From: Mesorhizobium huakuii
Lineage (GTDB): Bacteria > Pseudomonadota > Alphaproteobacteria > Rhizobiales > Rhizobiaceae
Length of the DNA stretch: 64,000 bases
Direction: 5' to 3'
Assembly: GCF_014189455.1 (NCBI RefSeq)
Contig: NZ_CP050296.1
Span: forward strand, 434,001 to 498,000
In this document: positions 16,473-42,739 of the stretch, in pieces
Layout: each line of letters begins with the position of its first letter
How positions within the stretch are numbered: the stretch's first letter is position 1
Notes under the pieces: generated by a model
Seen by the model: the letters and a program-made list of their open reading frames with translations, nothing else
Database searches by the model: none
What the model was told of the DNA's origin: nothing
Made by a program: the position numbers and the translations under genes

Positions 16473-16787
16473 TCAATTATCGAAATTTTCATCGACGAAC
16501 ATCTCGGAAAATTTCTGAGGCGAAAGCGTTACGTTGTTGTCCCGAGCGATTTCGAGGTTTCTTGCCCATAGCCCCCGGATTTCGGCCGGTATTTCCTCGG
16601 AAAAATGAACCGATGCGGCAATTGCACCTTGCCAGTGTCCATCGCCACCGTAGAGAGCGTGCAGTTTGGGAGCTATCGCCTTCAAGGATTTATCCACTTC
16701 TTCCGGCAACTCCCCAATTACCCATAGAACATAGAATTCCAAGAGTTTAAGCAACGGCTTTCCGTCATAGCGCGGATTATTTTCCAT
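16473..16787 (-). CDS. Candidate immunity protein (toxin locus 1, second)
   Basis: A 104-aa acidic cytosolic protein (MENNPRYDGKPLL...), 8 nt downstream of the first immunity candidate and in the same orientation as the ejection-protein toxin. The segment LEFYVLWVIGELPEEVDKSL is amphipathic and the protein has no signal or TM. Small acidic proteins directly after a polymorphic toxin are usually immunity factors. No Pfam family is recognised, so the role is inferred from position. Confidence 0.55.
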   Translation of the reverse strand: MENNPRYDGKPLLKLLEFYVLWVIGELPEEVDKSLKAIAPKLHALYGGDGHWQGAIAASVHFSEEIPAEIRGLWARNLEIARDNNVTLSPQKFSEMFVDENFDN

Positions 16788-16795
16788 TCTATCTC

Positions 16796-17086
16796 CTATG
16801 CGTCATTGACGGCGTATTGGATAAGCCTTTGACAAACTGCCGATAGGCTAGGTTTTTCTTCTATCGAGGCAAGCCAACCCTCGATGACTTCTCTAGAGAT
16901 ATGTATCTCAAGAAAATATTCCAAACCCGCTTCGACGGCCTCCGGTGGCGATCTTCCCGTGTCTAGCCCGGTAGCAACCATCGCATCCGGATCCTCGGTC
17001 CAAGGCTCCGACGCATAAATCGTGTCGTACTCGTCAAACTCCGACAGCCTTTCGACTATCTCTATCAGCCTGCCTACTTTCCCCAT
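16796..17086 (-). CDS. Candidate immunity protein for the WHH-nuclease toxin
   Basis: A 96-aa acidic protein (MGKVGRLIEIVERLSEFDEYDTIYASEPW...). It overlaps the end of the 901-aa toxin gene by 13 nt, so it is translationally coupled to it. The composition (many Asp/Glu, no Cys) fits an inhibitor that masks a basic nuclease active site. Its pattern of YASEPWTEDPDA and EYFLEI resembles small proteins seen beside contact-dependent nuclease toxins, but this is from memory of family style, not a search. Confidence 0.6.
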   Translation of the reverse strand: MGKVGRLIEIVERLSEFDEYDTIYASEPWTEDPDAMVATGLDTGRSPPEAVEAGLEYFLEIHISREVIEGWLASIEEKPSLSAVCQRLIQYAVNDA

Positions 17087-19779
17087 CGAGAAAACCCTCC
17101 TTTGCCATTCGGATGCAGAACCTTCTGGAAGATGGTACCAGGATCATGCTGAGATCTAGGCACGAGTTGCATCACTCCGGACTCATCGGCGTGATGCCAC
17201 GAGAAACCATCAGGCGCGTTTTGGGGAGCCAGCCCCCTCGGCGTTCTCCGAAGATTAATTCCATGATTCTGCATGGCTTGAGCGAAAGCCGCTTCTCCCT
17301 CCATCGCCTGCAACAGCGCCTCGTTTGCTTCTTGATAATGTAGATCGCGTGAGATACCCGGATATGACGTAGGGGCTAGTCTCATTTCAAACACTACACT
17401 ATAAAATCGGCCGGTCGGTAGGTGAGTTGCTCTGGCATTCGCCTCTCCTGCGGCAAGTTCCGGCGCAGGCTTGGATAAATCGACGCCTTGATAGAGGTCT
17501 GCCCCCTCGGACGCGCCTTCCTCCAACGCCTTGATGCCCGCATCACTTCCCCTGCCCTCAGCGGCAGATGCCCCTGAATCGGCCTGGCGCCTGGTGAGCC
17601 TTCTCACCACCTGACCGCCAACCGCACTCAAACCCTCGGCAAGGGCATTGCCACCTGCACCCAACAGTGCTCCGGTGCTCATCTCCGTTACGATGTTCCG
17701 GCCGTTTAGAGCGGCATGGACACCGCCGAACACAGCGCCGTCTGCTGCCATGGTCGAGCTTCGTGCGAAAAGGCCGGGTATGCCCTTCAGACCTTCTGCC
17801 GCGAACTTTCCCGTGAAGGTGAGGCCCGCGCTCTGAATGCCGTGGCCGGTTGCGAAAGCGCCGAGCAATTTCGCGGCTATGCCGGCCGAGCCGGCACGAT
17901 CTTCAGCATCCTCGCTTTCGGCTTGCTCGGCTGCCTGCAACTCGCTGTAGCTTTTGTCGGAGAAAAGCCATTTCATTCCCGCGGCGAACTTATCGGCCTG
18001 ATCGAATGTCGCGCCGTTGGCCACGAGCCTGACGCTGTCGTTCACAGCCGCAATCGGCTTTTGCCACCATGAGCCGGCGTTGAACCGCACACGGGCGGGG
18101 TGCAGGGCCATCTCGATCAAACCGGCCTCGAGGGCCTTTCCCTGAGCTTCCAGCTCTGCCGGCGCGATCCTCGGATTGTTTGCCGCGTTTTGGCGCAGGC
18201 GAGCCAAGGCGGACTGGAAAACCTGCCCAGCGAATGTGAAGCGCGCCTCCGGATCGCGCACGGCCTTGAGAAACTCACTCAGTTCGATGATGCGCTGCCG
18301 CAATGGCGCGCTCTCATCGACGTATCTCGCGCCGAAGCTGTCCGAGAGCGCCTGCGGAACCGCCAAGACCTTGCCGAAGCCCATCTGCTGTTGAGCAGCC
18401 CAGGCCCACGTGATGGCGGCTTGAAAATCCTGGGGCGTTGAGACCTTGCTCCAGTCCGGAGCCTTGCCGGGGAATATCTGGCTGATGTAGGCGACAGGAT
18501 CGGCGTCGCGGGCGCCCATGATCAATTGGGCGGCGCCGGCTCTTACCTCGTATCGCTCGCGCTCTTCCAGCGAGCCGTTGGGGCTTGGTTCGAAATCCCG
18601 AAGCTCGGCATGTATTGCCTGGTTCGGCGCCCGATACATGTCGAAGAAAGACTTGGCGACGCCGGCCGTTGTCCTGAACTGATCGAAATGCTGCGGGCCG
18701 TCCTCGGCTCCGTAGATGTTGACGAAATCCTGAGCGGTCGGCTCCTCCTCCGGATATTTGCCCGTGGCGGCGATGACGGCCGGTGCGTTCTGCTCCGCAA
18801 GCAGGACCCTTGCACGCGCACCGATCAGTTGGGCTGCGGTGGCGGTGTTGGCCTGGTCCTTCAACGCCGCAACGTCACCAGGCTTCAGGTAGGTGATGGC
18901 ATCGAGGGGGATGGCTGTCTTGTCTTCCGGCGTCGTCGAACCACTTCCGCCGAACGCCTGCGCCACGGTTTCATCTGGCGTGCGCGTTCCAACGCGATCG
19001 CCTTTCGCGGCCGCCGCATTTGCACTGTCCGAGGCACTGGAGCCACCAACGACGGCATCGTCCTTCGTCCGGCCCTGCGCCGCGCCCAGCATCTCGGCAG
19101 CCCGCTTCGGGTCCTGGGCGATCATCGCCTGGACCAGCGCCTTGGCCGTGTTGGTGCGCCAGGCGGCTTCCGCCGCTTGCCGGGCAAGCGGGTTGCCGAT
19201 CTTGGCGATCAGGTCGGACCCGCTCTGCCGGATCGCCTCGAAGTTCGCGGTGTCGTTCGGGTCGCTTTGGGCGATGGCGCTCGTCGACATGGTGTCGACC
19301 TTGGTCCACTTGGCCAACTCATAGTCGTCGCGCCGCTGAAGCTGCCGTGCCGCCATGCGCAGCGCGCCGGTTTGACGCAGCGGTTCCTTCTGCCCGGCGA
19401 AAGCGGCGCGCTGGCTCTCGGGCATACCCGGCAAGGCGGCGGCAAACAGCTTGTCGAACAGGCCTGTCTTGACCACCCGGCCACTGTACGGATCGACCTG
19501 GCCGTACATGACTTCATGCAGGCCGGCGCCGTCGGCCGGCGCATTTGCCGTCACCTCGTCTTCCGCTTGCGCGATCTGGCCGTTGAACCGGCGGCGGGCC
19601 AGTTCGGCATCGAACGCCTCCTGCTGGTCCTTCATCTGCTGATAGCGCTCGGCGACAGCGGAAAGGTGATCGCCAAAACCCTGCATGGCGCCACCGATCG
19701 GCGAGCCCTGGGGGTATTGCGGCGCGTTGCCGGTATCGAGCCGGCGCTGGGCGATGGAAAGGGGGATGACGTGGACCAT
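17074..19779 (-). CDS. Phage ejection/internal virion protein with C-terminal WHH nuclease toxin (copy 1)
   Basis: A 901-aa protein directly (1 nt) downstream of the gp14-like gene, the position of T7 internal virion proteins gp15/gp16. Residues 1-300 (MVHVIPLSIAQRRLDTGNAP...; VDPYSGRVVKTGLFDKLFAAALP) are nearly shared with two paralogues at 31197 and 40226; homology continues to about residue 600. A Gly/Ala-rich hydrophobic stretch follows (about 640-740). The last 45 residues hold GFSWHHADESGVMQLVPRSQHD, the signature of WHH-type HNH/endonuclease VII toxins (His pair at about 862-863). The start has no strong SD, so coupling to the upstream stop is likely. Read as an ejection protein carrying a nuclease warhead. 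Confidence 0.8.
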   Translation of the reverse strand: MVHVIPLSIAQRRLDTGNAPQYPQGSPIGGAMQGFGDHLSAVAERYQQMKDQQEAFDAELARRRFNGQIAQAEDEVTANAPADGAGLHEVMYGQVDPYSGRVVKTGLFDKLFAAALPGMPESQRAAFAGQKEPLRQTGALRMAARQLQRRDDYELAKWTKVDTMSTSAIAQSDPNDTANFEAIRQSGSDLIAKIGNPLARQAAEAAWRTNTAKALVQAMIAQDPKRAAEMLGAAQGRTKDDAVVGGSSASDSANAAAAKGDRVGTRTPDETVAQAFGGSGSTTPEDKTAIPLDAITYLKPGDVAALKDQANTATAAQLIGARARVLLAEQNAPAVIAATGKYPEEEPTAQDFVNIYGAEDGPQHFDQFRTTAGVAKSFFDMYRAPNQAIHAELRDFEPSPNGSLEERERYEVRAGAAQLIMGARDADPVAYISQIFPGKAPDWSKVSTPQDFQAAITWAWAAQQQMGFGKVLAVPQALSDSFGARYVDESAPLRQRIIELSEFLKAVRDPEARFTFAGQVFQSALARLRQNAANNPRIAPAELEAQGKALEAGLIEMALHPARVRFNAGSWWQKPIAAVNDSVRLVANGATFDQADKFAAGMKWLFSDKSYSELQAAEQAESEDAEDRAGSAGIAAKLLGAFATGHGIQSAGLTFTGKFAAEGLKGIPGLFARSSTMAADGAVFGGVHAALNGRNIVTEMSTGALLGAGGNALAEGLSAVGGQVVRRLTRRQADSGASAAEGRGSDAGIKALEEGASEGADLYQGVDLSKPAPELAAGEANARATHLPTGRFYSVVFEMRLAPTSYPGISRDLHYQEANEALLQAMEGEAAFAQAMQNHGINLRRTPRGLAPQNAPDGFSWHHADESGVMQLVPRSQHDPGTIFQKVLHPNGKGGFSRWGK

Positions 19780-19780
19780 T

Positions 19781-20302
19781 TCAGTAGAGTCCCGAATAGC
19801 CGCCGGCTATGGCGGCGCTTGCCCGGGGCGAAAATGCCGAACCGCCGAGGCTCACAGCCTTGGTCGGGTCGTAGATTTTGGAGAGGCCGCCAACGAGCGC
19901 GCTGCCGGCGTTGAAGATCGATGCCGTCACCGCCTGCTTGCCGGAGAAGCGCGAAATGGCGGCCTGACTGTTGAGGTTGTTCTGGCGCAGCTGCGAGCTG
20001 TACTGGATCGCGTCGAGGTCCATCTGACCTTGCCTGGCATTGGCGGCCAGCACCTCGGTCGGCGAGCCGGATATGCCGACGCCGGAGGCGCCGGCCTGGG
20101 CGCGCGCCTGGGCCTGCAGCAGATCCTGCTTGTGGCGCTCCTGGCTCTGTTCGAAGGCCGCGCTTTGTGCCTCGGCCTGCGCCTGCTGCTCATAGGCCTT
20201 GGTCTGATAGTCGGCCATCTGCTTCGACTGCTGGCCTTCGACCAGCGCGCCGCCAACCGACAGGGCCGTGCCCGCCAGTCCAAGAAGGGCAAGTGTGCAC
20301 AT
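19781..20302 (-). CDS. Internal virion protein, T7 gp14-like
   Basis: A 173-aa protein with an N-terminal hydrophobic Gly/Ala helix (residues about 5-22), a long Gln/Ala-rich helix (residues about 23-75, QQSKQMADYQTKAYEQQAQA), and the segment ASGVGISGSPTEVLAANA that typifies gp14-like core proteins of podoviruses. In T7 gp14 is ejected into the outer membrane as part of a transient DNA channel. Here it is immediately followed by the toxin-bearing ejection protein. Confidence 0.75.
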   Translation of the reverse strand: MCTLALLGLAGTALSVGGALVEGQQSKQMADYQTKAYEQQAQAEAQSAAFEQSQERHKQDLLQAQARAQAGASGVGISGSPTEVLAANARQGQMDLDAIQYSSQLRQNNLNSQAAISRFSGKQAVTASIFNAGSALVGGLSKIYDPTKAVSLGGSAFSPRASAAIAGGYSGLY

Positions 20303-20305
20303 GGT

Positions 20306-20973
20306 TCAGCCTCGTTCGCTCAGAGAGGGAGTTGCGGGAATGAATTTGCTTTTGACGCCGTCCACGGGCGCGCCGAGCGGCGGGCGCGGGTCGAGCGCAC
20401 CGCCGGGGGTCAGGAAGGAGAGCAGCACCCTGTCCGCCTGCAGCGCCGGCCGGCTGAGCCGGGCGGGCGGGGTGGCCCGAGCGCCGGCCATGGCGGCGCG
20501 GCGTGTGGTGGTCAGGTTCACCTTCAGCTCGCCGACGCCGGCGGCGTCGAACAGGCCATTGGCGGTGGCGATGCGCGGGCGAGCGCATCGGCCTCGAACA
20601 GTTCCTGGCGCAGCTGCTCGACCAGACGATGAACGGCGCGCCACCGGTCGACAAGCAGGGCTGCCCTGGCCTTGATCTCCTCGCCGAGTGCGGCGATGTC
20701 GGCGCGGGCCTCGCCGCGCGCGGCTTCCGCGCGGCGCTTGCCGGCGGCGTCGATGGTTTTTTCCAGCAGCGCGATCCGGTCGTTGCAGTCGTCGAGCGCG
20801 GCACGCGCTGCAGCCAGGTCGCCATCGCCGAAGACCGCGCGGTCCTCGGCTTCAGCCAGTTCGCTCTTGCAGGCGAGCGCGTCGTTGAGGTCGGTGTCGA
20901 GCAGAGCGATGACGGCCGCGAATTCGGCAGCCGTCCGCGCCCTGCCGAGGGTTTCGGCATGGGGGGATGTCAT
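20306..20973 (-). pseudogene. Phage hypothetical protein with internal frameshift
   Basis: Two frames are needed. The first (from 20973, MTSPHAETLGRARTAAEFAAV) is a charged helical region to about ELFEADALAR. The second continues as IATANGLFDAAGVGELKVNL to KSKFIPATPSLSERG ending at 20306, 3 nt before the gp14-like gene. The switch lies near 20580. Together they give about 222 aa with an N-terminal coiled coil. It sits between tail tubular B and gp14, where podoviruses often have a small virion or assembly protein. No function recognised. Confidence 0.5.
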
Positions 20974-21000
20974 TGGGTGGGTTCCTTGTGGGGAGTGTTA

Positions 21001-21182
21001 TCTCCCCCTCGAGGGGGAGATGGCCGGCAGGCCAGAGGGGGTCGGTACGACCGGATGCGACCTTCTGCGGCGGATGAAGGTTGGCGCCTCGCGTGAGGCG
21101 CCGGCATCGTTTCAGGCTAGGAGGTCGCGTCCCGTCGTACCGACCCCCTCTGTCGCCTTCGGCGACATCTCCCCCGTCGATC
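21001..21182. repeat. RIME-type palindromic intergenic repeat, interrupted by ISAs1 element
   Basis: Begins CTCCCCCTCGAGGGGGAGAT and contains GCCGGCAGGCCAGAGGGGGTCGG, with its mirror GACCCCCTCTGTCGCCTTCGGCGACATCTCCCC near 21145-21177. The missing end (CCCTCGAGGGGGGAGATC) appears at 22337-22354, so the insertion sequence split one repeat. Related repeats are at 36306-36465 and 46380-46537. Confidence 0.75.
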
Positions 21183-22336
21183 CAGGGGAATCGCATATGG
21201 CGATTTTGGGCTTGAAGTTGGTTTGAGAAGGGATTCTTTGGGAAGGCAGTCCAGCGAGGAGTGACTGCCATTACCAGCCTTGAGAGCTATTTCGGTACGG
21301 TGCCTGATCCGCGCGCGGCCAACGCCACACATCGGCTTGGCGACCTGATCGTGATGATGATCGCTGCGAGCCTGTGTGGCGCGACCAGCGCAACGGAGTT
21401 TTCGTTGTTCGCGCAAGAGCGCAAACAGGCGCTGTCGCGCTTGATCGACTATGAGGAGGCGCCTAGCCACGACACCTTCTCGCGGCTGTTGCGCCTGCTC
21501 GATCCGGAGGCCTTCGGACGGGCGTTCGCCGCCTTTGCCGCAGGCTTTGCCCAGGCACGTCAGGGTGTGGTCGCACTTGATGGCAAGGCGCTGCGGCGGG
21601 CCTATGAGAAAGGCCTTGCGGCCAGCCCGCCCCTGACGGTGTCGGCCTTTGCCAGCCAGACGCGGCTGTGTTTGGCGGCGGTCTCGCCCGGCGACGAAGA
21701 CAATGAGGTCGAGGCTGCCCTCAAGGTCGTCGAACTCATTGATCTTACTGGCCGATTGGTCACGGCCGATGCCCTCCACTGCCACACGCGCATGGCCAAG
21801 GCCATCATTCAGCGCGGCGGCGACTATCTGCTCGCACTCAAGGGAAACCGCCGGCATTGGTTGGCTCGGGCCAATCAACAACTGGCCCAGACCACTCCCG
21901 CCGTCACTGAGCGGACCGAGACCAGCCATGGCCGCAACGAATGGCGGCAGGCAGAGGTCGTGGTGGCGGCTGAACCAATGATGCCGGGGCACAAGGCCTT
22001 CATCCGCATCACCAGCCGGCGCGATCAGGCCGAGCCGCTGACGCGCCTGTTCATGGCCTCAACGCTGCTGTCGCCACAGCAGGCGATCGACCTCACCAGA
22101 GCCCATTGGCAGATCGAGAACGCACTGCACTGGATGCTCAACGTTCATCTGCACGAGGACCTCAGTCGTGCCCGCAAGGACAACGCTCCCGCCAACACCG
22201 CCCTCATCAACCGCATCGCCAGAAATATCCTTCAGGCCGCCGACATCGACAAAGTCCCCATTAGCCACCGCATCAAGAAATGCGCTTGGAATGACGACTA
22301 TCTCATCCAGGCAATCGCTCATATGCGATAGCCCTG
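21183..22336 (+). mobile_element. ISAs1-family insertion sequence
   Basis: 1154 bp with terminal inverted repeats: left CAGGGGAATCGCATATG, right (reverse complement) CAGGGCTATCGCATATG, two mismatches. It carries one transposase gene. No clean target duplication is seen; CCGTCGATC on the left and CCCTCGAGG on the right match at only 6 of 9 positions. It lies in a repeat between phage genes in the gp12 to gp14 interval, reading opposite to them. Confidence 0.85.
21261..22331 (+). CDS. ISAs1-family transposase
   Basis: A 356-aa DDE transposase starting at GTG 21261 behind AGCGAGGA. Family features: N-terminal H-repeat region (DPRAANATHRLGDLIVMMI), first Asp in VVALDGKALRRAYE, second in LVTADALHCH, LLALKGNR, and the C-terminal HWQIENALHWMLNVHLHEDLSRAR with the catalytic Glu. 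The frame is intact, so the element may still be active. Confidence 0.92.
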   Translation: MTAITSLESYFGTVPDPRAANATHRLGDLIVMMIAASLCGATSATEFSLFAQERKQALSRLIDYEEAPSHDTFSRLLRLLDPEAFGRAFAAFAAGFAQARQGVVALDGKALRRAYEKGLAASPPLTVSAFASQTRLCLAAVSPGDEDNEVEAALKVVELIDLTGRLVTADALHCHTRMAKAIIQRGGDYLLALKGNRRHWLARANQQLAQTTPAVTERTETSHGRNEWRQAEVVVAAEPMMPGHKAFIRITSRRDQAEPLTRLFMASTLLSPQQAIDLTRAHWQIENALHWMLNVHLHEDLSRARKDNAPANTALINRIARNILQAADIDKVPISHRIKKCAWNDDYLIQAIAHMR

Positions 22337-22356
22337 CCCTCGAGGGGGGAGATCAA

Positions 22357-24825
22357 CTACGGCTCGGCGTCGAACACCGGCGTGAACGCGCGGATCGTGC
22401 AGGGCGTCGGATTGACGTGGCGGATGCGCACCCGGCCCTGCCCTTCCCAGCTGTCGTCGATCGGCACCTCGACATTGCCGGTGAACAGTGTCGCCCCGCC
22501 GTCGGGTGCGACGATCGAGGGCATGCGCACCGGCTCCCAGCGGCCGCGCATGAAGGACTGCACCTCGAGCCCCGTGGTGTCGGTCTCGAGCAGCGACAGG
22601 ATCGCTTTCGCCACCTTCTTGCGGCGGCCGATGATGGAGCCGTCCTTGCCGCCGACATCGAGTTCCAGCGTGTCGGCCGCCGCCGCATAGGGCAGGCCAA
22701 GCTGCCATTTGGCGGCAGTCGAGCCGCCCGGCAGCGTCACCGTGCCACCGCCGCTCACGGTGAGGCCATGGTAGACCTTGCCGTCTGCCAGCACGTCGAC
22801 GGACTGGCCGGCAAGGTGTGCCGCCCCGCCCACCGTGGCCACTGCGGCGCCCGTATAGGTCAGGCCGCAATCGACCTCGAAGGCATCGGCGACGGCACCA
22901 TATTCGAACGGCGCGGTCTTGACCTCGATATAGCGCCTGGTCACGCCACCGATAGTGCGCTTGACGACCAGCCAGAGGTCGTCATTGCCGTCCTGACCGG
23001 GAGTCACAGCGGCACTTTCGACAATTGCCCAGTCTACCCCGGTGAAGCTGCCGCCCAGGCGATGCCGATGCATGCCTCTAACTTCCTGGGATGGCTGGTG
23101 GGTGTAACCGCCCAGTTCGCCATTATCGAGCGGGAACCACAGCAACGGGTCAGGGTCGGTCTGGAAGGCCAGCTCGACCACGCCTTGCTTGGGGATGTGC
23201 TCGGAAATCTGGCCGACATCGTCCGAGGTGAAACGGCTCTGCGCCGTCTGCGTCAGCTCGGCGATGGATTTGCGCGAGCGCGTGACATAGAGAAACGACT
23301 GGCCGGCATCGACCGGGCGGATGCGGGCACAGCCGAAGGTGCGCGAGCGCCGGTTCTTGAACGAAGACGGCGTCAGCGCCTCGTCGATGCCCGAGCCCGA
23401 AAGCGCGCGCACGCCGCCTGAGGTGCCGATCATCAAGGCGCCGTCCGATTCCGCGATCCACTGGATGTCGTTGGCCTGGCCGCCGCCGGCCTGGACGAAC
23501 TCCAGCGCATCATCGTCCTTCTCGCCCAACGCGAAATTGTCGAAGTCGCCGGTTTTCGATGCGTAGACCGAGAACTTGCGGCTGAAGGCCAGGCGCTCTT
23601 CGTACAGCGATCCGCTTTCGACATACTTCCCAGGCACGAACGTACCCAGCCGCCAGCGTGTGATCGGAGAGAAGTCGGGCAAGGCGTGGCCATAGAGCCT
23701 GACCTTGACCACTGTCGTGCTGGTGCGACTTGTGATCTTGGCCCAGCGCCAAACATTGTCGGCGCCGAGCAGTCGGATTGATCGGCCGACATCGGTTGTC
23801 TGAAAGCCCGTACCGCCGTTGATGCCGGATATGCTGGACGCGGTAAGGTCGAACGGCGTCATCATGTCGCCGTTCTCGGCCAACGCAACCTCTGAGATCC
23901 CGGTGTTGTTGGCGTCGTCCCCGCCGCCACCGGAGAAGTCGAATTTGTAGTATTCATAGGTCGTCTGGTTCTGAAACTCGTAAAAGCGCACTTCCGAGCC
24001 GGACCAGCCCCGTTCCCCGCTCCGGCCATCCAGCGAGACGTAATTCACGCCATTGTTTGAACCTGACAGTTTCCATTGTGTCGGCGTGTCGCCCCATTTG
24101 GCGGCATCCTCCGATGCAGAGATCCAGTAGGCGTTCGCCGCCTTTCCCTGACCGGCGGGGAACTGGTACTGAAGAAACCCGCTGCTCCCCGTCGACACAG
24201 TGACGGAGCCGTTTATTGCCCGGTCAAAGGCCCTCCAACTGGTTGTGCCCGTGCCGTTGTCAGTAACGGTGCCGCTCGGTGTCGTGGCGGAGGTCATCTG
24301 CGGCGTGGCGTGGCCAGTATTCGCCGGGGTGAGCGTCGTCGGCGTGGTGTTGATTTCGTCATAGGGGCCATCGAGAAAGGTGAAGTCTGCCAGCGACCAG
24401 GTGGTGTGCGCGGTGCGCGTCAGCACCTTGGGCGGATAGTCCTTGTGGCTGATCCACATCTGGTCGGCCGACTGCACATAGGCGAGCTCGAACAGGTCCG
24501 CTTCCAGATAGGGCGAGGCGACCTCCACCGTGCCGACGCGCGCACCATAGGCGTAGACGCGGATATAGAGGTCGCCGAATTCGAGCGCGTAGGCCTGGTC
24601 GGCCGAGAAGATGAACGGGATCAGCCGCGTCTTCTTGGCCGATGTCTTGACCTCGCCGGCGAAATAGGTGCCGCCGCGCTTGCGGATGCCGCCATGCGGC
24701 AGCGTGAGGAAGTTCTCGCATCGGGCAAGCGCCGCCCGATAGAAATCGAGCGACGCGCGGGCATGCAAGCGCGGACTGATTTCACCACGCGTGAAAACAT
24801 CCTGGACGGGATAAAGCGTCGTCAT
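22357..24825 (-). CDS. Tail tubular protein B-like (gp12) with inserted F5/8-type domain
   Basis: An 822-aa virion protein. The N-terminal part (PVQDVFTRGEISPRLHARAS, then FLTLPHGGIRKRGGTYF) and the later TVVKVRLYGHALPDF and EFVQAGGGQANDIQWI segments match podoviral nozzle/tail tubular B proteins. Between about residues 185 and 305 is an extra domain (WRAFDRAINGS, WISASEDAAKWGDTPTQW, FYEFQNQTTYEYYKFDFS) with the look of an F5/8 type C (discoidin) carbohydrate-binding module. Such an insertion in the nozzle is unusual. Start overlaps the stop of the tail tubular A gene by 1 nt. Confidence 0.82.
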   Translation of the reverse strand: MTTLYPVQDVFTRGEISPRLHARASLDFYRAALARCENFLTLPHGGIRKRGGTYFAGEVKTSAKKTRLIPFIFSADQAYALEFGDLYIRVYAYGARVGTVEVASPYLEADLFELAYVQSADQMWISHKDYPPKVLTRTAHTTWSLADFTFLDGPYDEINTTPTTLTPANTGHATPQMTSATTPSGTVTDNGTGTTSWRAFDRAINGSVTVSTGSSGFLQYQFPAGQGKAANAYWISASEDAAKWGDTPTQWKLSGSNNGVNYVSLDGRSGERGWSGSEVRFYEFQNQTTYEYYKFDFSGGGGDDANNTGISEVALAENGDMMTPFDLTASSISGINGGTGFQTTDVGRSIRLLGADNVWRWAKITSRTSTTVVKVRLYGHALPDFSPITRWRLGTFVPGKYVESGSLYEERLAFSRKFSVYASKTGDFDNFALGEKDDDALEFVQAGGGQANDIQWIAESDGALMIGTSGGVRALSGSGIDEALTPSSFKNRRSRTFGCARIRPVDAGQSFLYVTRSRKSIAELTQTAQSRFTSDDVGQISEHIPKQGVVELAFQTDPDPLLWFPLDNGELGGYTHQPSQEVRGMHRHRLGGSFTGVDWAIVESAAVTPGQDGNDDLWLVVKRTIGGVTRRYIEVKTAPFEYGAVADAFEVDCGLTYTGAAVATVGGAAHLAGQSVDVLADGKVYHGLTVSGGGTVTLPGGSTAAKWQLGLPYAAAADTLELDVGGKDGSIIGRRKKVAKAILSLLETDTTGLEVQSFMRGRWEPVRMPSIVAPDGGATLFTGNVEVPIDDSWEGQGRVRIRHVNPTPCTIRAFTPVFDAEP

Positions 24826-30271: not shown

Positions 30272-30283
30272 GACCTCAGCTCC

Positions 30284-36554: not shown

Positions 36555-36557
36555 GGT

Positions 36558-36752: not shown

Positions 36753-37221
36753 GGTTCCAGCCTTCTCTTGTCCAGTCGTAGAGGAAGAAATCTTCGCCGT
36801 TGCGGCCGTAGCCCGGCAGCAGGCAGCGTTGCGTGGCGCCCAGCCGGCCAAGCCAGCGCAACGCCAGATCATTGGCGGCCAGGGCGCGGGCCTCGACCCG
36901 CCAGGCGCCGCGAGCGGCAACCTGAGGCCCAAGCACGGTATGAAAGAACTCTGTAATCCTGGGCACGCAGCGCTTCATGCGGCGCGTGCCCCAGCTCCAA
37001 GCAATCCACAGACCGCCGCGCTGCTCGGCCGCGCCAAATCCGGCCTCCGGATTGCCGTCGAGCTCGGCGACATAGGCAAACCCCTGCAGCGCGGTGAGCG
37101 CCAGCAGCGCCGGCGACCAATGGTCGAGCTGGCAGTCGATCTCGGTACGGTCTTGCGGGCGCAGGTTCGCGGCGATGTAGGAGAGATCGCGCAGCGTGGC
37201 GGGAAGGATGCGGACGGGCAT
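36652..37221 (-). CDS. T7 gp13-like (DUF2833) GNAT-fold phage protein
   Basis: A 189-aa protein starting MPVRILPATLRDLSYIAANLRPQDRTEID. The GNAT-like fold shows in FAYVAELDGNPEAGFGA, the Trp-rich WIAWSWGTRRM and NDLALRWLGRLGATQRC. T7 gp13 is an internal virion/assembly protein of this kind. The tail beyond WTREGWNH overlaps the next gene and may be read-through after a lost stop. ATG 37221 was preferred to longer frames. Confidence 0.7.
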   Translation of the reverse strand: MPVRILPATLRDLSYIAANLRPQDRTEIDCQLDHWSPALLALTALQGFAYVAELDGNPEAGFGAAEQRGGLWIAWSWGTRRMKRCVPRITEFFHTVLGPQVAARGAWRVEARALAANDLALRWLGRLGATQRCLLPGYGRNGEDFFLYDWTREGWNHVSVSKTTGTEAAAAGADDQGRRCQGSRGGIAG

Positions 37222-37430
37222 GGATGGACTTTCCTCCGCGGGAAGCGAAGTCATCGTCAAGCGAGCGAAAGCGATCCCAGCTTCGTCACTCCAGGGCGAA
37301 GCGACGCAGCGCAGACCCCTGGAGCTGCTCCGCAGCCCAAGGAATCCATTCGGTGACATCGAGGCGTCGCGACGATGCGGAGGCGCTGCGTTGCTTCGCA
37401 ATCATTGCGGCATCCGCACCGACCATCGCG
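37222..37430. other. Dispersed rhizobial intergenic repeat
   Basis: No gene. 37270-37390 contain GCAGCGCAGACCCCTGGAGCTGCTCCGCAG and a GGAATCCATTC...GACATCGAGG stretch, echoed at 42940-43080 and near 37678-37745 (ATGTCGCGGAATGGATCCCCGGGTCAAG). This is a high-copy intergenic repeat style. Confidence 0.5.
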
Positions 37431-37518
37431 CAAAAACAAAACCCGCCTCAAGGGCGGGTCGTTGGCGCAAATCAGCACCATGGATAAGAATGTACCATTG
37501 CTGCCCTCACGCGGTCAA
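37431..37518 (-). ncRNA. Promoter/short transcript/terminator cassette R1
   Basis: Minus strand: -35 TTGACC (37513-37518), 18-nt spacer, -10 TACATT (37489-37494), then ATCCATGGTGCTGATTTGCG, CCAACGACCCGCC, a GGGCGGGT hairpin (37441-37460) and a TTTTGTTTTTG tract. The predicted transcript is about 45-50 nt. Two further copies lie at 46597-46683 and 46763-46849. It could be a small RNA or encode a tiny peptide MVLICANDPP. Promoter calls are by eye. Confidence 0.5.
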
Positions 37519-37562
37519 TGGGCCGCAGGAAAGAATTCCTATTTGGTGCCATTCCGGGCCAA

Positions 37563-37665
37563 AATTACGATGACAGTGCACTGCTTCCGTTCGATCGTCC
37601 TGAAGCAATAGCGGACTTCGAGAAGCGGAGTCGCATCCGAGAATGAGTGCACTGTCACGGCAATT
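37563..37665. repeat. REPIN-like element, copy B (103 bp)
   Basis: Left end AATTACGATGACAGTGCACT, right end GAGTGCACTGTCACGGCAATT. Interior with TAGCGGACTTCGAGAAGCGG and GTTCGATCGTCCTGA is close to copy D, which is exactly the same length. No ORF; a non-autonomous mobile repeat. Confidence 0.8.
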
Positions 37666-37778
37666 CCGTTCGTCGGCTGATGTCGCGGAATGGATCCCCG
37701 GGTCAAGGCGGTCAAGCCCGAGGATGACGAACCGGTAGGCGTCCCGCCCCTTGAAGGCGGTTCAGAGGCCGTGCCAGT

Positions 37779-38102
37779 CTAGGCTTTTGGCTTCGCCTTC
37801 CTGACTTCCTCAATGGCCATGTTTAACGCCGTTTCAAAGGCGTGCCTTAAGCCAGAGATCTTGTCTTTCCTCAGCGCAGCTGTTTGTTTTGAAATAGGTG
37901 CGAGTTCCCAAATGAGCGCGTTGCCTGCCTCCAGCAGGTGAGCCAGAGCTGCATCCGTTGCCTGGCTCGTTTCCAAAAGGTCGCGCGACTTCCCAATGTT
38001 CAGCTGCAAATGACGCGTGATCCCTTTCACGTTGCCTGCTTCCGCATGGATCGCCTCTCTGCGCAACTTATGCAGGTACTCCACCGCTGCTCCGATTGGC
38101 AT
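37779..38102 (-). CDS. Hypothetical protein near toxin locus 3
   Basis: A 107-aa helical cytosolic protein (MPIGAAVEYLHKLRREAIHAEAGNVKGITRHLQLNIGKSRD...; ending EEVRKAKPKA). No TM or Cys; no family recognised. It is the last minus-strand gene of the toxin-3 neighbourhood, separated from the others by REPIN copy C. It could be an orphan immunity gene or unrelated cargo. Confidence 0.5.
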   Translation of the reverse strand: MPIGAAVEYLHKLRREAIHAEAGNVKGITRHLQLNIGKSRDLLETSQATDAALAHLLEAGNALIWELAPISKQTAALRKDKISGLRHAFETALNMAIEEVRKAKPKA

Positions 38103-38271
38103 TTGTTCCTCCCTTGCTGTCGAAACCTAACGGATCATCATACGCCTCATTCTGAAAGAGGCCGCGCGATATCGTGGGTTTGGCGACTCGGGCGAAACCA
38201 ACCAGGTCCGGAACTCAAGAATGTTGGAAATTCACTGGTCGAGCTGGCAATCGATCTCGGCGCGGTTTTCG

Positions 38272-38364
38272 AATTACGGTGACAGTGCACTATTTCCCAG
38301 ATCTCAGTCCGAACCTCACTCCAATCACATAGACACAGTCGTTAAAATGCACATCACCGCAATT
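38272..38364. repeat. REPIN-like element, copy C (93 bp)
   Basis: Left end AATTACGGTGACAGTGCACT is intact; the right end is degenerate (ATGCACATCACCGCAATT). The interior (ATTTCCCAGATCTCAGTCCG, then GTTAAAATG) resembles the left part of copy A at 16241. Confidence 0.7.
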
Positions 38365-38372
38365 GCCGCGCC

Positions 38373-38579
38373 CTAACGATCCGCCCGCGCCGCCTTCTCC
38401 AGCGCCGCCTTACGCTGAATTTCGATAGTTCGATTCCAGAAGCGCACCACTTCAAAATGCTCTTGTCTGGTCAACCAGATCTTGTTCTCCAAACTGACTG
38501 GATCGCCGCCAACCGCAATCGGTTTGACCTCGAACAGTTCCATACCCTTGGAGCGAGGAGCTGTATCTTGTACGCTCAT
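38373..38579 (-). CDS. Small protein coupled to the SUKH gene
   Basis: A 68-aa protein (MSVQDTAPRSKGMELFEVKPIAVGGDPVSLENKIWLTRQEHFEVVRFWNR...). The GGDP...NKIWLTRQEH...V.FWN motif is a recognisable pattern in small proteins next to SUKH-type immunity genes. Start overlaps the SUKH stop by 4 nt, so the two are co-translated. The C-terminus ALEKAARADR resembles the end of the Bbp19-like gene (ALEKAARAEG), and the DNA at 38382-38405 matches 34178-34205, pointing to recombination of a phage end with immunity cargo. Confidence 0.55.
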   Translation of the reverse strand: MSVQDTAPRSKGMELFEVKPIAVGGDPVSLENKIWLTRQEHFEVVRFWNRTIEIQRKAALEKAARADR

Positions 38580-38971
38580 TTCAAGTCCTCCAGCGTGGCA
38601 AATAGATCGGCGAGGTCTCGCGCTATCGTCTCGGCGGATTGCCGTTCCATAAATATAAACGGGATGCGCACGATTGGCATTTCCACATCGTGGGTGTCGA
38701 AGCCATAGGCTTCCCCTCCTCCGTTCGATGCGAACAAGAGGATGCCTGGCGCGTATTTTTCAACCTCGTATTCTCGATTGAAATCAGCCAACTCTTCGGC
38801 TTTAAAAAAAATAATATAGTTGTCGCCGATGAAACCTTCGCCGCCATTATGCTCTTTGAGGAAGTCGGCGTAATCCTTGGGCAGCACGACGCCCAAGCGC
38901 GCCGACAGGCCATCGACGACTGTGGATTCAGCCGGCGCGTCGAACTGGCCCTCAGTCAAACTATATCCCAC
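38576..38971 (-). CDS. SMI1/KNR4 (SUKH) family immunity protein
   Basis: A 131-aa cytosolic protein. The SUKH signature is visible: LGVVLPKDYADFLKEHNGGEG near residues 26-46, then NYIIFFKAEEL, YAPGILLFASNGGGEAYGFD and PIVRIPFIFM. SUKH proteins are the classic immunity superfamily of polymorphic toxin systems and neutralise many unrelated nucleases and deaminases. It lies beyond the tandem immunity pair of toxin locus 3 and may protect against a toxin not encoded here. Confidence 0.9.
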   Translation of the reverse strand: MGYSLTEGQFDAPAESTVVDGLSARLGVVLPKDYADFLKEHNGGEGFIGDNYIIFFKAEELADFNREYEVEKYAPGILLFASNGGGEAYGFDTHDVEMPIVRIPFIFMERQSAETIARDLADLFATLEDLK

Positions 38972-39142
38972 TGATCTCCTCCTAGGTCCTTCAGCAACTC
39001 ATTCCACCACGGCGTAGCCTGTTGTCTATGAACTTCGCGAGGCAGAACGATCTTTGTAGGAGGTGTCGATCGGACTACCGCCAAACTTCACTGGAGAGAC
39101 CGGTCAGCGTTGCGTCGCCGCGACAACAAAGGCGCGATCCGG

Positions 39143-39571
39143 TTACAGCTCGTAAGGCTCGACCACAGCAAACGGAATGCCTAACGATTCCAACAAATCG
39201 AGAATGCGTTTCGAGATGACGAGACGGAAGGGTATCGCGATCCCGAAATCGTCGCGGCCAGCCTTCCCATTTACTTTCAGCCAGACGAAAGGTGGTAGCT
39301 GCAGCCCGGGTTGATCCTCTTGACACTCTTCCGAGGTAGTCACCTCGGCCTCGGCGAACGTGGCACCTGAAAAGCCCATCTTCTGCAGTGCGCGCTGGGT
39401 TTCCTGGGTGACGAGGAAACAGGGGAATGTCGCAACGATCACATCACCGAACCAGCCCTCTACCACATAGTGAAGCCTGCTTACGATTGGTGGGTGGACG
39501 CTCCGGTCAAGAACGGTGTTTTCGCCAATCCCACCAGCGACGTTTGGCCGTATTTTAAAGTATCGCATCAC
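39143..39571 (-). CDS. Immunity-like protein, tandem paralogue 2
   Basis: A 142-aa protein strongly similar to the gene at 39801 (MMRYFKIRPNVAGGIGENTVLD; HPPIVSRLHYVVEGWFGDV; FPCFLVTQETQRALQKMGFSGATF; ending FAVVEPYEL). The pattern of a xxYF start, AGG.G..T..D...HPPIV and GW.GD...FPC resembles immunity proteins of the MXAN_0049/Imm11 type. The duplicated unit includes flanking DNA to about 39070, indicating a tandem duplication of about 665 bp. REPIN copy D lies between the paralogues. Confidence 0.65.
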   Translation of the reverse strand: MMRYFKIRPNVAGGIGENTVLDRSVHPPIVSRLHYVVEGWFGDVIVATFPCFLVTQETQRALQKMGFSGATFAEAEVTTSEECQEDQPGLQLPPFVWLKVNGKAGRDDFGIAIPFRLVISKRILDLLESLGIPFAVVEPYEL

Positions 39572-39628
39572 TCACCTATCAGGGGATTGAACAGATACCC
39601 ATATTTCCTATTGATATAGGTCACGTAT

Positions 39629-39731
39629 AATTACGGTGACAGTGCAATATTTCTGTTCGATCGACCTGACACAATAGCGGACTTCAAGAAGCGGAGTCGC
39701 ATCACGGGATGAGTGCACTGTCACCGCAATT
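39629..39731. repeat. REPIN-like element, copy D (103 bp)
   Basis: Left end AATTACGGTGACAGTGCA, right end GAGTGCACTGTCACCGCAATT; interior nearly the same as copy B (TAGCGGACTTCAAGAAGCGG). It sits exactly between the two immunity paralogues. Confidence 0.8.
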
Positions 39732-39800
39732 CCTACCGCCAAACTTCACTTGAGAGACCGGTCCGCGTTGCGTCGCCACGGCAACAAAGGCGCGATCCCG

Positions 39801-40229
39801 TTACCGTTCGTAGGGCTCGACCACTGCAAACGGTATTCCCAGTGATTCCAGCAAATCAAGAATACGTTTCGAGATAACGAGGAGATAGTTTGCTGCAATC
39901 CCGAAGTCGTCGCGGCCTGCCTTCCCATTCACTTTCAACCAAACGAAAGGTGGAAGTTCCTGCCCAGGTTGATCCTCATGAAACTCCTCGGATGTCGTCA
40001 CTTCGACGTCGGCGAACGTCGCACCTGAAAAACCCATCTGTTGTAATGCACGCTGGGCTTCTTCGGTAACGAGGTAACACGGGAACGTCGTGACGAGCAC
40101 ATCACCAAACCAGCCCTCTACTTCATAGTGAAGCTTGGTCACAATCGGCGGATGGACGCTCGCGTCAAGAACGGTGTGGTTGCCAAGCCCACCAGCGACG
40201 TTCGGTTCTATGTAAAAATATTGCATCAA
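39801..40229 (-). CDS. Immunity-like protein for toxin copy 3, paralogue 1
   Basis: A 142-aa protein (MMQYFYIEPNVAGGLGNHTVLD...; ending FAVVEPYER). Its start overlaps the stop of the toxin gene by 4 nt (ATGA), so toxin and immunity are translationally coupled. Likely Imm11/MXAN_0049-type; such proteins accompany HNH-family toxins. Assignment to that family is from pattern recognition. Confidence 0.7.
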   Translation of the reverse strand: MMQYFYIEPNVAGGLGNHTVLDASVHPPIVTKLHYEVEGWFGDVLVTTFPCYLVTEEAQRALQQMGFSGATFADVEVTTSEEFHEDQPGQELPPFVWLKVNGKAGRDDFGIAANYLLVISKRILDLLESLGIPFAVVEPYER

Positions 40230-42739
40230 TCACCTATTGGAGGATTGAACAGATGTCCGTATTTCTTGTCGATGTAAGTGACGTAGTCCAGCACTTGCTG
40301 GCGGGTTGGCTGGGGATGCGACCTGTAAAAATTATTCCATTCGTATCGGAAAACAGTCTTGTGCAAAAGATTATCAAGCCCTTTGGGAATTCCGCGAAGG
40401 TTCTGAAGCGAGTGCATTTCATCTTCGGCAACGAGGCCAATATATCTTGTCAATACCTGCCGCTCTGCCGCGTGATGGACCACTACTTGACCCTCCAAGC
40501 TCGGGTATGCATCGAGGAACGTTTTGCGATAATTTTTTGAAAGAGCCTTGCCAAACGATGCTCCCGGATACTTTACCTTGGAGGGGTCCCTTGCGATCGA
40601 CTTTATTATCTCAAGAAGCTCGGCCTTGTCAGGCTTGGCGCCTGTGCTCAAGCGGTAGGCGGCCTCTTTTGCTGCATCTATTGCACGAGACTCCGCCTCG
40701 ACAGCCTGGCGAGCCACCGACCTCTCGGCGGCGAGATCCGATGCTGCGCGTGAGCCGCTATCGGCAAATTCCTCTATCGGCCTAGCAAGCTTGCCAGTCC
40801 CGCCGCGGACTATGGCCAAGCCTTTTGCAACGGCTTCGCCGACTGCCTCTAACGCTAGGCGCCCGTCGGCAACCGCCCCCGAGCCGGGGGTAGCCGGCAG
40901 TTGTTCAAGGAAGCCCCAAGGGGAATCGCGCAGATCCTGGAGACCCAGTCCAATGTCGTGCGGGATGCGGCCTAGGGCCTCGAAACCCTCGCTCAGATAA
41001 TTGCCGAAGTCGTCCGCGGCTTGTTGGAATGCCGACTGGGGTTCGCCAGGGCGTGCCGATAGAGGCCGCCCTTGCCCTATCGCAGAAGTGACGATCGGAT
41101 CGACTAGAGCCGGCCAAGAAATGCCAACGCGATCCAACTGCTGAGACAGGGCATCGCGCGCCGTCGGATCGGGCGCCGCTGCCAGAAGATCACGCAGGAT
41201 GTTGCCCTTCTCACCCTGCGGCACGTCTTTGTTGCCAAAGGTATCAGCTATGCTTTGGACAACAGCCTTCGGCAGGGGTTGAGGGGTCTCGACGCCCAGT
41301 TGCCTCTGGGCTGCAACCGAGACGGCGATAGCCCATTTGTATGCCGCCAGATCGCTGATCTCCGACTTGCTGCCTGGACCGGTTGCTGCCTTCCACGCAG
41401 CGTCCACATTGGGGAAGACTTCTCGAACATAGCCAGCAGGGTCCGCCCGCCTCATGCCTAGTGTCTTGAGAGCCGCCGCAGCGGTAACCCGATAGCGCGT
41501 CTGCTCCTCTTCGGAACTGCCAGGCCCAGGCTCCGCATCGCGCAGCGCTGCGTGGATAGCCTGGTTGGGCATGGTCCGCATGCCGAAGGCTTGACGGCCG
41601 ACATCCATCTTCAAGCTGAAGTCGTGGTACTGCTTACCGCCCTCCTCAGCGCCATAAACGGCAGCGAAGTCCGCAGGGCTGGGCATGTTGCCGGCATAAC
41701 TGCCGGTCTTGGCGATTGCGTCCGGGCCGTTCTGCGAAACGAGAGCGATGTTGGTGCGCGCCTCGATCAGATGCGCCGTGTTCGCGGCATGTGCCTGGTT
41801 GATCAGCCACTGAACGTCATCTCGAGATAAGTCAGCGAGATGGTGGGTTACCGGCTTGATCGCCATTGAATTGGGTGCCGAAGCACTGTCCCCGAACGCC
41901 TGTGCTATGCGCTCATCCGGTGTCGGCGTGCCGACACGGTCGTCTTTCCCCGCAGCCATCTTTGAGCCGCCTGACAAGGGGCTGCCCTCGGTCTGCGCAC
42001 TGTCGCCCGTAGCCTCGCTGCCGGAGGCCGGCGCGCCCACACCAAACATCTCCAGCGCACGCTTGGGGTCTTTTGCGATCAGCGCCTCGAACCGCGCCTT
42101 GGCGGCGGTGCCGTACCAGTCCTTGACCATTTGCTGCCGGATGCCGGGATCGACCCCCATCTTGTCGATCAGGTCGAGACCCTGCTGGCGGGCCGCTTCG
42201 AAGGTGACGTGATCGTCGGGGTTGGCGTTACCGATGGCGATGGCGCTGGTCTTCAGCGCAGTGTCGACCTCGGCCTGCTCATAATCCTTGCGCCGCTGAA
42301 GCTGCCGTGCCGCCATGCGCAGCGCGCCGGTTAGACGCATCGCCTCCTTCTGGCTGGCGAAAGCGGCGCGCTGGCTTTCGGGCATGCTGGGCAAGGCAGC
42401 GGCAAAGAGCTTGTCGAACAGTCCGGTCTTGACCACCCGGCCGCTGTACGGGTCGACCTGGCCATACATGGCTTCATGCAGGCCGCTGCCGTCGGCCGGC
42501 GCGTTCGCGGCCACCTCGTCTTCCGCCTGCGCAATCTGGCCGTTGAACCGGCGGCGTGCGATCTCGGCGTCGAACGCTTCCTGCTGGTCCTTCATCTGCT
42601 GATAGCGCTCGGCGACAGCGGAAAGGTGATCGCCCAGCCCCTGCATGGCACCGCCGATCGGCGAACCCTGCGGATATTGCGGCGCATTGCCGGTATCGAG
42701 CCGGCGCTGGGCGATGGAGAGCGGGATGACGTGGACCAT
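40226..42739 (-). CDS. Ejection-protein paralogue with HNH-like C-terminal nuclease (copy 3)
   Basis: An 837-aa protein sharing its first 300 residues with copies 1 and 2 (MVHVIPLSIAQRRLDTGNAP) and homologous to about residue 600. The last 90 residues are new: VVVHHAAERQVL (His pair about 755-756), DEMHSLQNLRGIPKG, NLLHKTVFRYEWNNFY and QVLDYVTYIDKKYGH. The order HH...S..NL..IP...N..LHK...H/Y matches secreted HNH/AHH-like nuclease toxins. ATG 42739 (RBS AGGAAACA) matches the start used by the paralogues; the 47-codon longer frame is rejected. Confidence 0.78.
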   Translation of the reverse strand: MVHVIPLSIAQRRLDTGNAPQYPQGSPIGGAMQGLGDHLSAVAERYQQMKDQQEAFDAEIARRRFNGQIAQAEDEVAANAPADGSGLHEAMYGQVDPYSGRVVKTGLFDKLFAAALPSMPESQRAAFASQKEAMRLTGALRMAARQLQRRKDYEQAEVDTALKTSAIAIGNANPDDHVTFEAARQQGLDLIDKMGVDPGIRQQMVKDWYGTAAKARFEALIAKDPKRALEMFGVGAPASGSEATGDSAQTEGSPLSGGSKMAAGKDDRVGTPTPDERIAQAFGDSASAPNSMAIKPVTHHLADLSRDDVQWLINQAHAANTAHLIEARTNIALVSQNGPDAIAKTGSYAGNMPSPADFAAVYGAEEGGKQYHDFSLKMDVGRQAFGMRTMPNQAIHAALRDAEPGPGSSEEEQTRYRVTAAAALKTLGMRRADPAGYVREVFPNVDAAWKAATGPGSKSEISDLAAYKWAIAVSVAAQRQLGVETPQPLPKAVVQSIADTFGNKDVPQGEKGNILRDLLAAAPDPTARDALSQQLDRVGISWPALVDPIVTSAIGQGRPLSARPGEPQSAFQQAADDFGNYLSEGFEALGRIPHDIGLGLQDLRDSPWGFLEQLPATPGSGAVADGRLALEAVGEAVAKGLAIVRGGTGKLARPIEEFADSGSRAASDLAAERSVARQAVEAESRAIDAAKEAAYRLSTGAKPDKAELLEIIKSIARDPSKVKYPGASFGKALSKNYRKTFLDAYPSLEGQVVVHHAAERQVLTRYIGLVAEDEMHSLQNLRGIPKGLDNLLHKTVFRYEWNNFYRSHPQPTRQQVLDYVTYIDKKYGHLFNPPIGD

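Follow-up and report, generated by a model that had tools for sequence, protein, structure and literature searches.

Candidate polymorphic toxins on podoviral ejection proteins in a phage-derived gene module of Mesorhizobium

Three ejection-protein paralogs with unrelated carboxyl-terminal tips

The 64-kb window analyzed here, the whole stretch from position 434,001 to 498,000 of contig NZ_CP050296.1 of Mesorhizobium huakuii (all coordinates below are window positions), contains an element made up of the late genes of a short-tailed phage. Within this element lie three large genes, all on the minus strand, which we call c1, c2, and c3 and which encode proteins of 901, 871, and 837 amino acids (aa), respectively. 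An earlier reading, made from the sequence alone, had described these genes as paralogs of a podoviral ejection protein fused to different toxins, and all three were found where it had placed them (Table 1).

The three proteins share a common start, MVHVIPLSIAQRRLDTGNAPQYPQG, and in an alignment residues 1–150 were near-identical in all of them. Per block of 50 columns over this region, 47, 48, and 42 were identical between c1 and c2, 49, 46, and 45 between c1 and c3, and 48, 45, and 44 between c2 and c3. From residue 151 onward, the identity of c1 to the other two drops to about 40–60%; c2 and c3 stay similar to about residue 250 (47 and 42 of 50 per block). Weak similarity among all three reaches about residue 550, and none was found past that point. 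The near-identity that the sequence-only reading had extended over the first 300 residues is thus confined to the first 150 for c1 and to about 250 for c2 and c3, and the homology it had traced to about residue 600 is weak and ends earlier; the unrelated tips were borne out. Repeats at the DNA level agree with paralogy, with 300 nt present in three copies at 88% to the first. Each of the proteins matches phrog_37988 (E-values in Table 1), and a profile of the three N-termini had matches in 55 of 146 Mesorhizobium genomes, including that of the window. On both grounds, the shared N-terminus is not a product of chance.

Recognizable toxin domains were found in two of the three tips. Residues 809–880 of c1 match Colicin-DNase (PF12639, 8e-8) and WHH (PF14414, 2.1e-6), both above the curated cut-offs. 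For the c2 tip, a profile of seven sequences (A2) retrieved from the PDB the synthetase toxin Tas1 (6ox6, E 5.7e-12), followed by SaSAS (8vx3, 0.0084) and a GTP pyrophosphokinase (2be3, 0.016). Pfam RelA_SpoT matched just one of the seven profile members (0.081) and not c2 itself, and nothing useful came from single-sequence PDB searches with the c2 and c3 tips or from NCBIfam searches with the whole proteins. The c3 tip had no relevant match in Pfam or the PDB. In an alignment of 20 c3-type tips, the motifs HH, E, LRGI, H, and KYGH are nearly invariant, and judging by eye we presume these residues to be nuclease-like. The prediction of nuclease or nucleotide-modifying toxins fits c1, whose tip belongs to a nuclease family, and c2, whose tip is of the RelA/SpoT family; c3 has no matching family.

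Outside its own genome, the c2 tip was found in four genomes from 3 genera and 3 families (five of 397 genomes, its own included). In these four (L114–L117), the Tas1-like tip sits on long open frames of 606–1247 aa with segments that look ParB-like by eye, which may be polyvalent proteins. Among the 397 genomes of the order, the c3 tip was present in its own genome and one other Mesorhizobium only, so no other carrier of this tip is known.

Tips are exchanged on a constant N-terminus

Besides 15 loci in genome contigs, the N-terminal profile matched 24 loci in viral contigs; one N-terminus searched against phage and plasmid collections, and the gp14-like protein encoded upstream of c1 searched against the phage collection, gave no match. 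From loci without the repeats of the window, we collected 125 open reading frames (ORFs) with this N-terminus. Removal of 26 duplicates left 99 unique ORFs, and removal of 28 that were short or open left 71 full-length proteins, closed and no shorter than 700 aa. When their last 150 residues were clustered by single linkage, these fell into 15 tip groups, with 21, 9, 9, 8, 7, 3, 3, 2, 2, and 2 members and five singletons, one of which (L109) comes from an ordinary phage. The expectation that the same N-terminus would occur with other C-termini, rather than always with one, was thereby confirmed. When 18 tips of relatives were scanned, four passed the Pfam cut-off, as TNT (1.3e-25), HNH (4.1e-6), Hydrolase_2 (4.1e-6), and DUF6973 (5e-17). 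Profiles of tip groups 0, 1, and 2 found nothing relevant in the PDB; by eye we would presume these tips to be HNH-like, which we do not count as a result. Toxin domains are recognized in a minority of groups, supporting the prediction that some tips have known toxin folds.

The genes recur in three slots: 12 of the 71 follow the terminase (slot A), 23 the portal gene (slot B), and 29 the gp14-like gene (slot C), with seven not assigned. All 29 slot C toxins begin 3–18 nt past the last sense codon of gp14. Genomes that bear the element carry from one to several copies, and genome G010 has 11 matching pieces. On a short contig of that genome (G010:C46 1-12376, L091), several copies of the N-terminal part of the toxin gene follow one another, some of them broken, possibly an array of displaced copies.

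An exchange can be followed at one locus, L004, which is 91.5% identical to slot C of the window up to position 17615 and then continues with a different tip and a different neighbor. Beyond these, it retains the final 15 residues of the window's WHH tip (93%), followed by the immunity gene of that tip (99%). Hallmarks of polymorphic toxins are therefore present in this family: a conserved N-terminal part joined to unrelated C-termini in 15 groups, and orphan genes and tip displacement, as seen at 38576–39174 and in L004.

Tip groups are coupled to the genes that follow them

By our rule, a gene was adjacent when an ORF of at least 70 aa started between −40 and +80 nt from the toxin stop, which was the case for 50 of the 71 toxins. 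All 222 pairs of toxins that share an adjacent family also share a tip group. When the pairing of tips and neighbors was shuffled 2000 times, the mean was 40 and the maximum 88; relatedness among the loci inflates these counts, but there were no exceptions. The toxin tips are thus coupled to their adjacent genes, as the sequence-only reading had proposed.

Several families illustrate this coupling. The DUF7716-like family to which the neighbor of c1 belongs is adjacent to all seven toxins with a WHH tip. A second family, phrog_21050, lies downstream of the same seven, and also of nine toxins with other tips. The 142-aa family represented by the neighbor of c3 was found with all 18 c3-type toxins for which an adjacent ORF exists, out of a group of 21, and with no other group. 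A SUKH-1 family is adjacent to eight of the nine toxins of group 2, and the window itself contains a remnant with 64–81% identity over 26–31 aa to the ends of all nine group 2 tips. The claim that each of the three toxin genes is followed by a small immunity-like gene therefore holds for c1 and for c3, whose neighbor is duplicated, and is weaker for c2.

The carrier corresponds to a podoviral ejection protein

Directly upstream of c1 lies a gene whose product matches T7_gp14 (Table 1). The podoviral order gp14–gp15–gp16–fiber, with a homologous N-terminus, was seen in two relatives, for which the order of phage Ab31 was also compared. In G734, which belongs to another genus, the homologue is a toxin-free protein of 898 aa with a lysozyme segment (phrog_3572, 7e-22), followed by a 1422-aa protein of phrog_342, "internal virion protein with endolysin domain". 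No tyrosine integrase was found on this contig, and nearby genes look repressor-like and ParB-like by eye, so that G734 is only tentatively regarded as an intact prophage. The other relative, G108:C28, comes from Mesorhizobium; this contig of 42.3 kb has a terminal repeat of 53 nt and carries genes for an integrase, a DnaB-like helicase, and a ParB-like protein. The repeat resembles a tRNA end by eye; ARAGORN found no tRNA in the last 2.3 kb. Its ejection-protein homologue has 1053 aa, contains wall-hydrolase segments but no recognized toxin tip, and precedes a gp16-like protein of phrog_342.

The position of c1 is therefore that of a podoviral ejection protein, in agreement with the earlier proposal. 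Among 179 sequences, nearly all from Mesorhizobium and many not reaching the position, the gp16-like protein occurred in one (this phage), and the lysozyme segment of G734 also in one, from another genus. As judged from these comparisons, the ejection proteins of the element carry toxin tips and have neither the wall-hydrolase segment nor a gp16 partner. A search of the PDB for a solved ejection protein with profile A4 returned only an amidase (E 1.9), and a Pfam scan of c1–c3 with E-values up to 0.1 found no MuF family.

Gene content of the element

The gene order of the element (Table 1) resembles that of Pseudomonas phage Ab31 and Pelagibacter phage HTVC010P, and the best listed phage matches of tail tubular protein B are Pelagibacter podoviruses such as HTVC010P. 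The gene set retains both terminase halves, portal, scaffold, capsid, tail tube, gp14, fiber, and endolysin.

Table 1. Genes and other features of the element and its surroundings (window positions)
Feature	Position	Strand	Basis
Entire element: late genes for structure and lysis from a short-tailed phage, with three toxin slots	8734..46351 (approximate ends)	-	ORFs conserved over element loci
Terminase large subunit, N half with Walker A motif; frameshifted here	45030..45674	-	PF03237 3.6e-5
Terminase large subunit, C (nuclease) half	43089..43844	-	PF17289 1.4e-14
c3, ejection-protein toxin (putative), slot A (after terminase), tip fold without match	40226..42739	-	phrog_37988 3e-156
Presumed c3 immunity gene, 142 aa, abuts toxin stop	39801..40229	-	phrog_32682; tip-specific adjacency
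Second copy of c3 immunity gene	39143..39571	-	phrog_32682 2.4e-72; 84% DNA repeat
Orphan tip remnant (~31 aa) of group 2; in-frame stop upstream	38968..39174	-	match to group 2 tip ends
Orphan SUKH-1 immunity gene, partner of group 2 remnant	38576..38971	-	PF09346 1.4e-13
Portal (head-tail adaptor)	34486..36510	-	phrog_332 5e-123
c2, ejection-protein toxin (putative), slot B (after portal), RelA/SpoT-family Tas1-like tip	31197..33812	-	profile A2; phrog_37988 1e-117
Candidate c2 immunity gene, 90 aa, weak case	30760..31032	-	starts 168 nt downstream of c2
Scaffold/protease-like gene	27386..28360	-	phrog_3742 7e-64; phrog_458 protease 6e-8
Major capsid protein	26222..27211	-	phrog_247 2.4e-82
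Tail tubular protein A	24825..25424	-	phrog_394 6.7e-46
Tail tubular protein B	22357..24825	-	phrog_376 1e-189
Internal virion protein, T7 gp14-like	19781..20302	-	T7_gp14 PF24072 7.2e-9
c1, ejection-protein toxin (putative), slot C (directly after gp14-like gene), colicin-DNase/WHH tip	17074..19779	-	Pfam; phrog_37988 E 0
Presumed c1 immunity gene, DUF7716-like, 96 aa	16796..17086	-	adjacency; PF24832 (0.0052) falls short of the cut-off
Second small gene, phrog_21050, possible accessory immunity	16473..16787	-	downstream of WHH toxins
Tail fiber, conserved anchor and variable distal part	13883..16063	-	locus comparison
Endolysin	9773..10525	-	phrog_315 2.2e-50
Host DoxX gene, fixed right neighbor	48164..48781	-	PF07681 2.7e-7
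Host gene, left neighbor used to measure the site	4295..5881	-	distance to DoxX

The terminase is encoded by two ORFs, split behind the ATPase part in all 14 loci that hold both halves (not all of them independent), with 0.2–2.4 kb of variable sequence between the terminase motifs. Two relatives (L231 and G108:C28, at 12810–14340) have this split as well, there with next to no gap. These ORFs thus appear to be the ATPase and nuclease halves of a naturally split terminase. Both are under selection, with a ratio of nonsynonymous to synonymous substitution rates (dN/dS) of 0.15 for the N half (11 loci) and 0.14 for the C half (20 loci), and they conserve what we take to be the Walker A, Walker B-like, and nuclease-like motifs. 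Because two relatives share the split and both halves are under selection, we dropped the notion that it marks a packaging-dead particle. A self-splicing intron was likewise considered, and none was found in the window with Rfam at gathering thresholds.

Residues 1–140 of the fiber match 42 loci and residues 301–726 match one, so that the distal part is nearly private to this element and receptor specificity may be swapped perhaps as fast as the toxins. Adjoining the fiber gene on the opposite strand (10608–13877) lie glycosyltransferase-like and FkbM methyltransferase genes, which possibly serve self-protection by changing the cell surface. A G+C-rich repeat occurs at 21004–21175 and 36321–36449 (85 nt at 91%, 49 nt at 94%), and outside the element a thiamine pyrophosphate (TPP) riboswitch is found at 3203–3317 on the minus strand (Rfam RF00059, E 2.9e-9).

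The element occupies one chromosomal site and descends with its host

The late genes of G108:C28 match the window in the same order. Its early ORFs, in contrast, do not: of 35 mechanically listed ORFs of at least 120 aa, including those for the integrase, the helicase, and the ParB-like protein, none matched the window. Missing from the element of this genome are thus the phage relative's genes for the integrase, the helicase, the ParB-like protein, and the large ejection protein that resembles gp16. The genome as a whole has 33 matches to the tyrosine integrase family (PF00589), none of them inside the element (serine recombinases were not searched), and in 14 further genomes, none among the tyrosine-integrase matches listed falls in the element.

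A full-length capsid gene with 93–100% identity was present in 50 of the 146 genomes. Ten of these have DoxX on a different contig and two have no good DoxX match; in the 38 testable genomes, the capsid gene and the best DoxX match always lie 9–31 kb apart. DoxX and the left neighbor were separated by 32–46 kb in 11 of the 12 genomes that carry the element, and by 3–20 kb in 30 of the 32 that lack it (77 genomes had a match to the left neighbor, of which 33 were not comparable, the two genes being on different contigs).

Twenty of the 30 empty sites were inspected (L203–L222). Eleven retain pieces of the terminase or endolysin genes, 18 keep the small gene adjoining the terminase, and 17 have the gene just outside the element (46937–47290). 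At four sites, the terminase/endolysin junction is identical. The retained pieces, the kept flanking gene, and the shared junctions together argue for loss by deletion from an ancestral element. Shared deletion junctions at the DoxX site could also serve as phylogenetic markers.

Distances between capsid genes follow those between gyrB genes (Mantel r 0.80, reached in 0 of 2000 permutations, 40 of the 50 genomes), at similar mean divergence (0.086 for capsid, 0.10 for gyrB) and similar dN/dS (0.062 and 0.068). Thirteen of 37 splits agreed between the gyrB and capsid trees, compared with at most two in shuffles. A fixed chromosomal site and vertical descent, both characteristic of gene transfer agents (GTAs), were thus found for this element.

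Comparison with known systems

Domesticated phage tails are known as weapons in the form of tailocins, extracellular contractile injection systems (eCIS), and type VI secretion systems, and domesticated phage heads are known as GTAs. Tas1 is a type VI effector; the c2 tip matches it at the level of profiles and may be related to Tas1 and other RelA/SpoT-family synthetase toxins, but sits on an ejection protein. Like tailocins (pyocins, rhizoviticin), the element consists of domesticated phage particle genes with a lysis gene and a variable fiber, and is presumed to kill relatives. Unlike these, it keeps capsid, portal, and terminase genes under selection, both terminase halves included, and its tail is podoviral rather than contractile or flexible, the toxins presumably being ejected.

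The closest parallel in architecture is formed by the MuF polymorphic toxins of temperate phages, for which the reports (PMC5576092; Apk2, PMC12226406; Bxa, PMC11699363) describe a virion protein with a swappable C-terminal toxin (nuclease or RelA-like), adjacent immunity genes, and presumed injection with the virion. No MuF domain was found in the proteins described here; their tips are carried by a podoviral ejection protein encoded next to gp14, of which an element usually has several copies, and the element is a late module apparently owned by the host rather than a prophage. With GTAs such as RcGTA (PMC11409702), it shares a fixed site, vertical descent, purifying selection, and the lack of any detected replication or integration genes, and it differs in its podoviral genes and polymorphic toxins. 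The ejection proteins of T7- and P22-type phages resemble c1 in gene position after gp14 and have homologues with wall-hydrolase segments; the available text of a review (PMC8954989) mentions a lysozyme on the gp15-like protein of K1E and does not contain the word "toxin". The element's own proteins differ from these in having a toxin tip, without a wall-hydrolase segment or a gp16 partner. Podoviral prophages of Rhizobiales, including a Mesorhizobium clade, have been described with a pfam04466 terminase (PMC10386132, whose available part likewise lacks the word "toxin"), whereas the terminase of our element matches Terminase_6. In the PMC literature, a scope that leaves aside most subscription papers and bioRxiv, we found no earlier description of a polymorphic toxin on a podoviral ejection protein or of a domesticated podovirus in Mesorhizobium.

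Interpretation

From these comparisons, the ejection protein beside gp14 appears to have become a polymorphic toxin that was copied mostly to three slots (to more in some genomes), with a tip-specific neighbor next to most copies. The element carrying it occupies the same chromosomal site, with capsid divergence that tracks gyrB, strong purifying selection, and losses by deletion elsewhere. We consider it probable that this is a vertically inherited, host-owned, domesticated late module of a podovirus that delivers polymorphic toxins to competitors. There is about an even chance that it represents a new class of phage-derived weapon, a headed counterpart of the tailocins: a whole short-tailed particle, owned by its host since early in Mesorhizobium, that would eject polymorphic toxins on a gp15-type protein and whose toxin slots and fiber could be swapped independently.

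In such a system, the cell would make particles loaded with toxin-tipped ejection proteins, and the endolysin would lyse the producer. The variable fiber would bind a related strain, and the toxin-tipped proteins would be expelled through the tail into the envelope of the target. Nuclease, alarmone-synthetase, or NADase tips reaching the cytoplasm would then kill or arrest cells without the immunity genes, while the adjacent genes would protect the cell's own kind. The conserved terminase halves suggest that DNA may also be packaged, at least in relatives in which the N half is unbroken.

Several results weigh against this interpretation. The weakest step of the mechanism is the crossing of the inner membrane, as the gp16-like protein appears to be lost, which leaves no known route, and no strongly hydrophobic segment was found in c1–c3. 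The largest tip groups, 0, 1, and 2, which comprise 39 of the 71 proteins and include c3, match no Pfam or solved family, so that the argument for their being toxins is made by exchange and coupling. Just four of the 18 scanned tips of relatives reached the Pfam cut-off, and one of these four is a cell-wall hydrolase, which might be part of the normal ejection apparatus. No ORF of at least 70 aa directly follows 21 of the 71 full-length toxins, and the neighbor of c2 is weakly linked, its family lying downstream of two of three toxins with the same tip (that of the window included) and of one other. Compared with relatives, the N half of the terminase is frameshifted in the window after about residue 153, and this copy may be unable to package; of the 99 unique ORFs with the N-terminus, 28 are short or extend past the end of their locus. 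Both observations suggest that some elements decay. As regards descent, the left neighbor is about 1 Mb away in three of the 44 genomes with both genes on one contig, tail tubular protein B tracks gyrB less well (r 0.44, 36 genomes, dN/dS 0.27), and the gyrB and capsid trees have no more than 13 of 37 splits in common. The last two make some recombination likely, and the descent inferred from these genes is vertical with some recombination.

Three other explanations were weighed against the domesticated weapon. The particles might belong to a GTA of podoviral type, carrying mainly host DNA, with toxins that kill non-kin or police recipients. The fixed site, the vertical descent, and the missing replication genes are all as in GTAs, and the selection on both terminase halves and their conserved motifs fit packaging; the frameshift in the terminase of this genome speaks against it, as does the literature searched, which shows no GTA with toxin and immunity genes, and we regard this explanation as unlikely. 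An ordinary temperate podovirus family that favors the DoxX site, using ejected toxins for superinfection exclusion or competition among lysogens, would come close to the model proposed for MuF toxins (PMC5576092). Its late genes would be expected to look phage-like and to be under selection, as they do, and a true phage relative with an integrase exists in the genus. That relative, however, has no recognized toxin tip, and its early genes are absent from the element, as are tyrosine integrases (with the scope given above); the capsid follows gyrB at similar divergence, and the empty sites bear deletion scars. We therefore hold this explanation to be less probable still. The sequence-only reading had named superinfection exclusion alongside competition. 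With no tyrosine integrase, no early genes, one fixed site, and descent like that of host genes, exclusion in the service of a phage was not supported, and the findings are better explained by competition that benefits the bacterium.

Very improbable, in our view, is a role of the variable C-termini as effectors ejected against host defense or physiology at entry, following the logic of polyvalent proteins. It would suit the four other genomes in which the c2 tip sits on polyvalent-like long frames with ParB-like segments, and RelA/SpoT domains have been reported in phage polyvalent proteins (PMC5512222). It does not fit the strict coupling of tips to small adjacent genes, the orphan immunity genes, or the TNT and colicin-DNase tips, and there is no propagating phage that would benefit.

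If the domesticated weapon is real, a short-tailed particle with its ejection machinery as toxin carrier would join the tail-derived weapons and the GTAs, and add a delivery route to those known. It would make testable what ejected phage proteins can carry, and would put on offer a natural, modular device for protein injection with several swappable payloads. The integrase-bearing phage G108:C28 in the same genus provides a before-and-after comparison of domestication. For the organisms themselves, the element may bear on competition between strains of nitrogen-fixing rhizobia.

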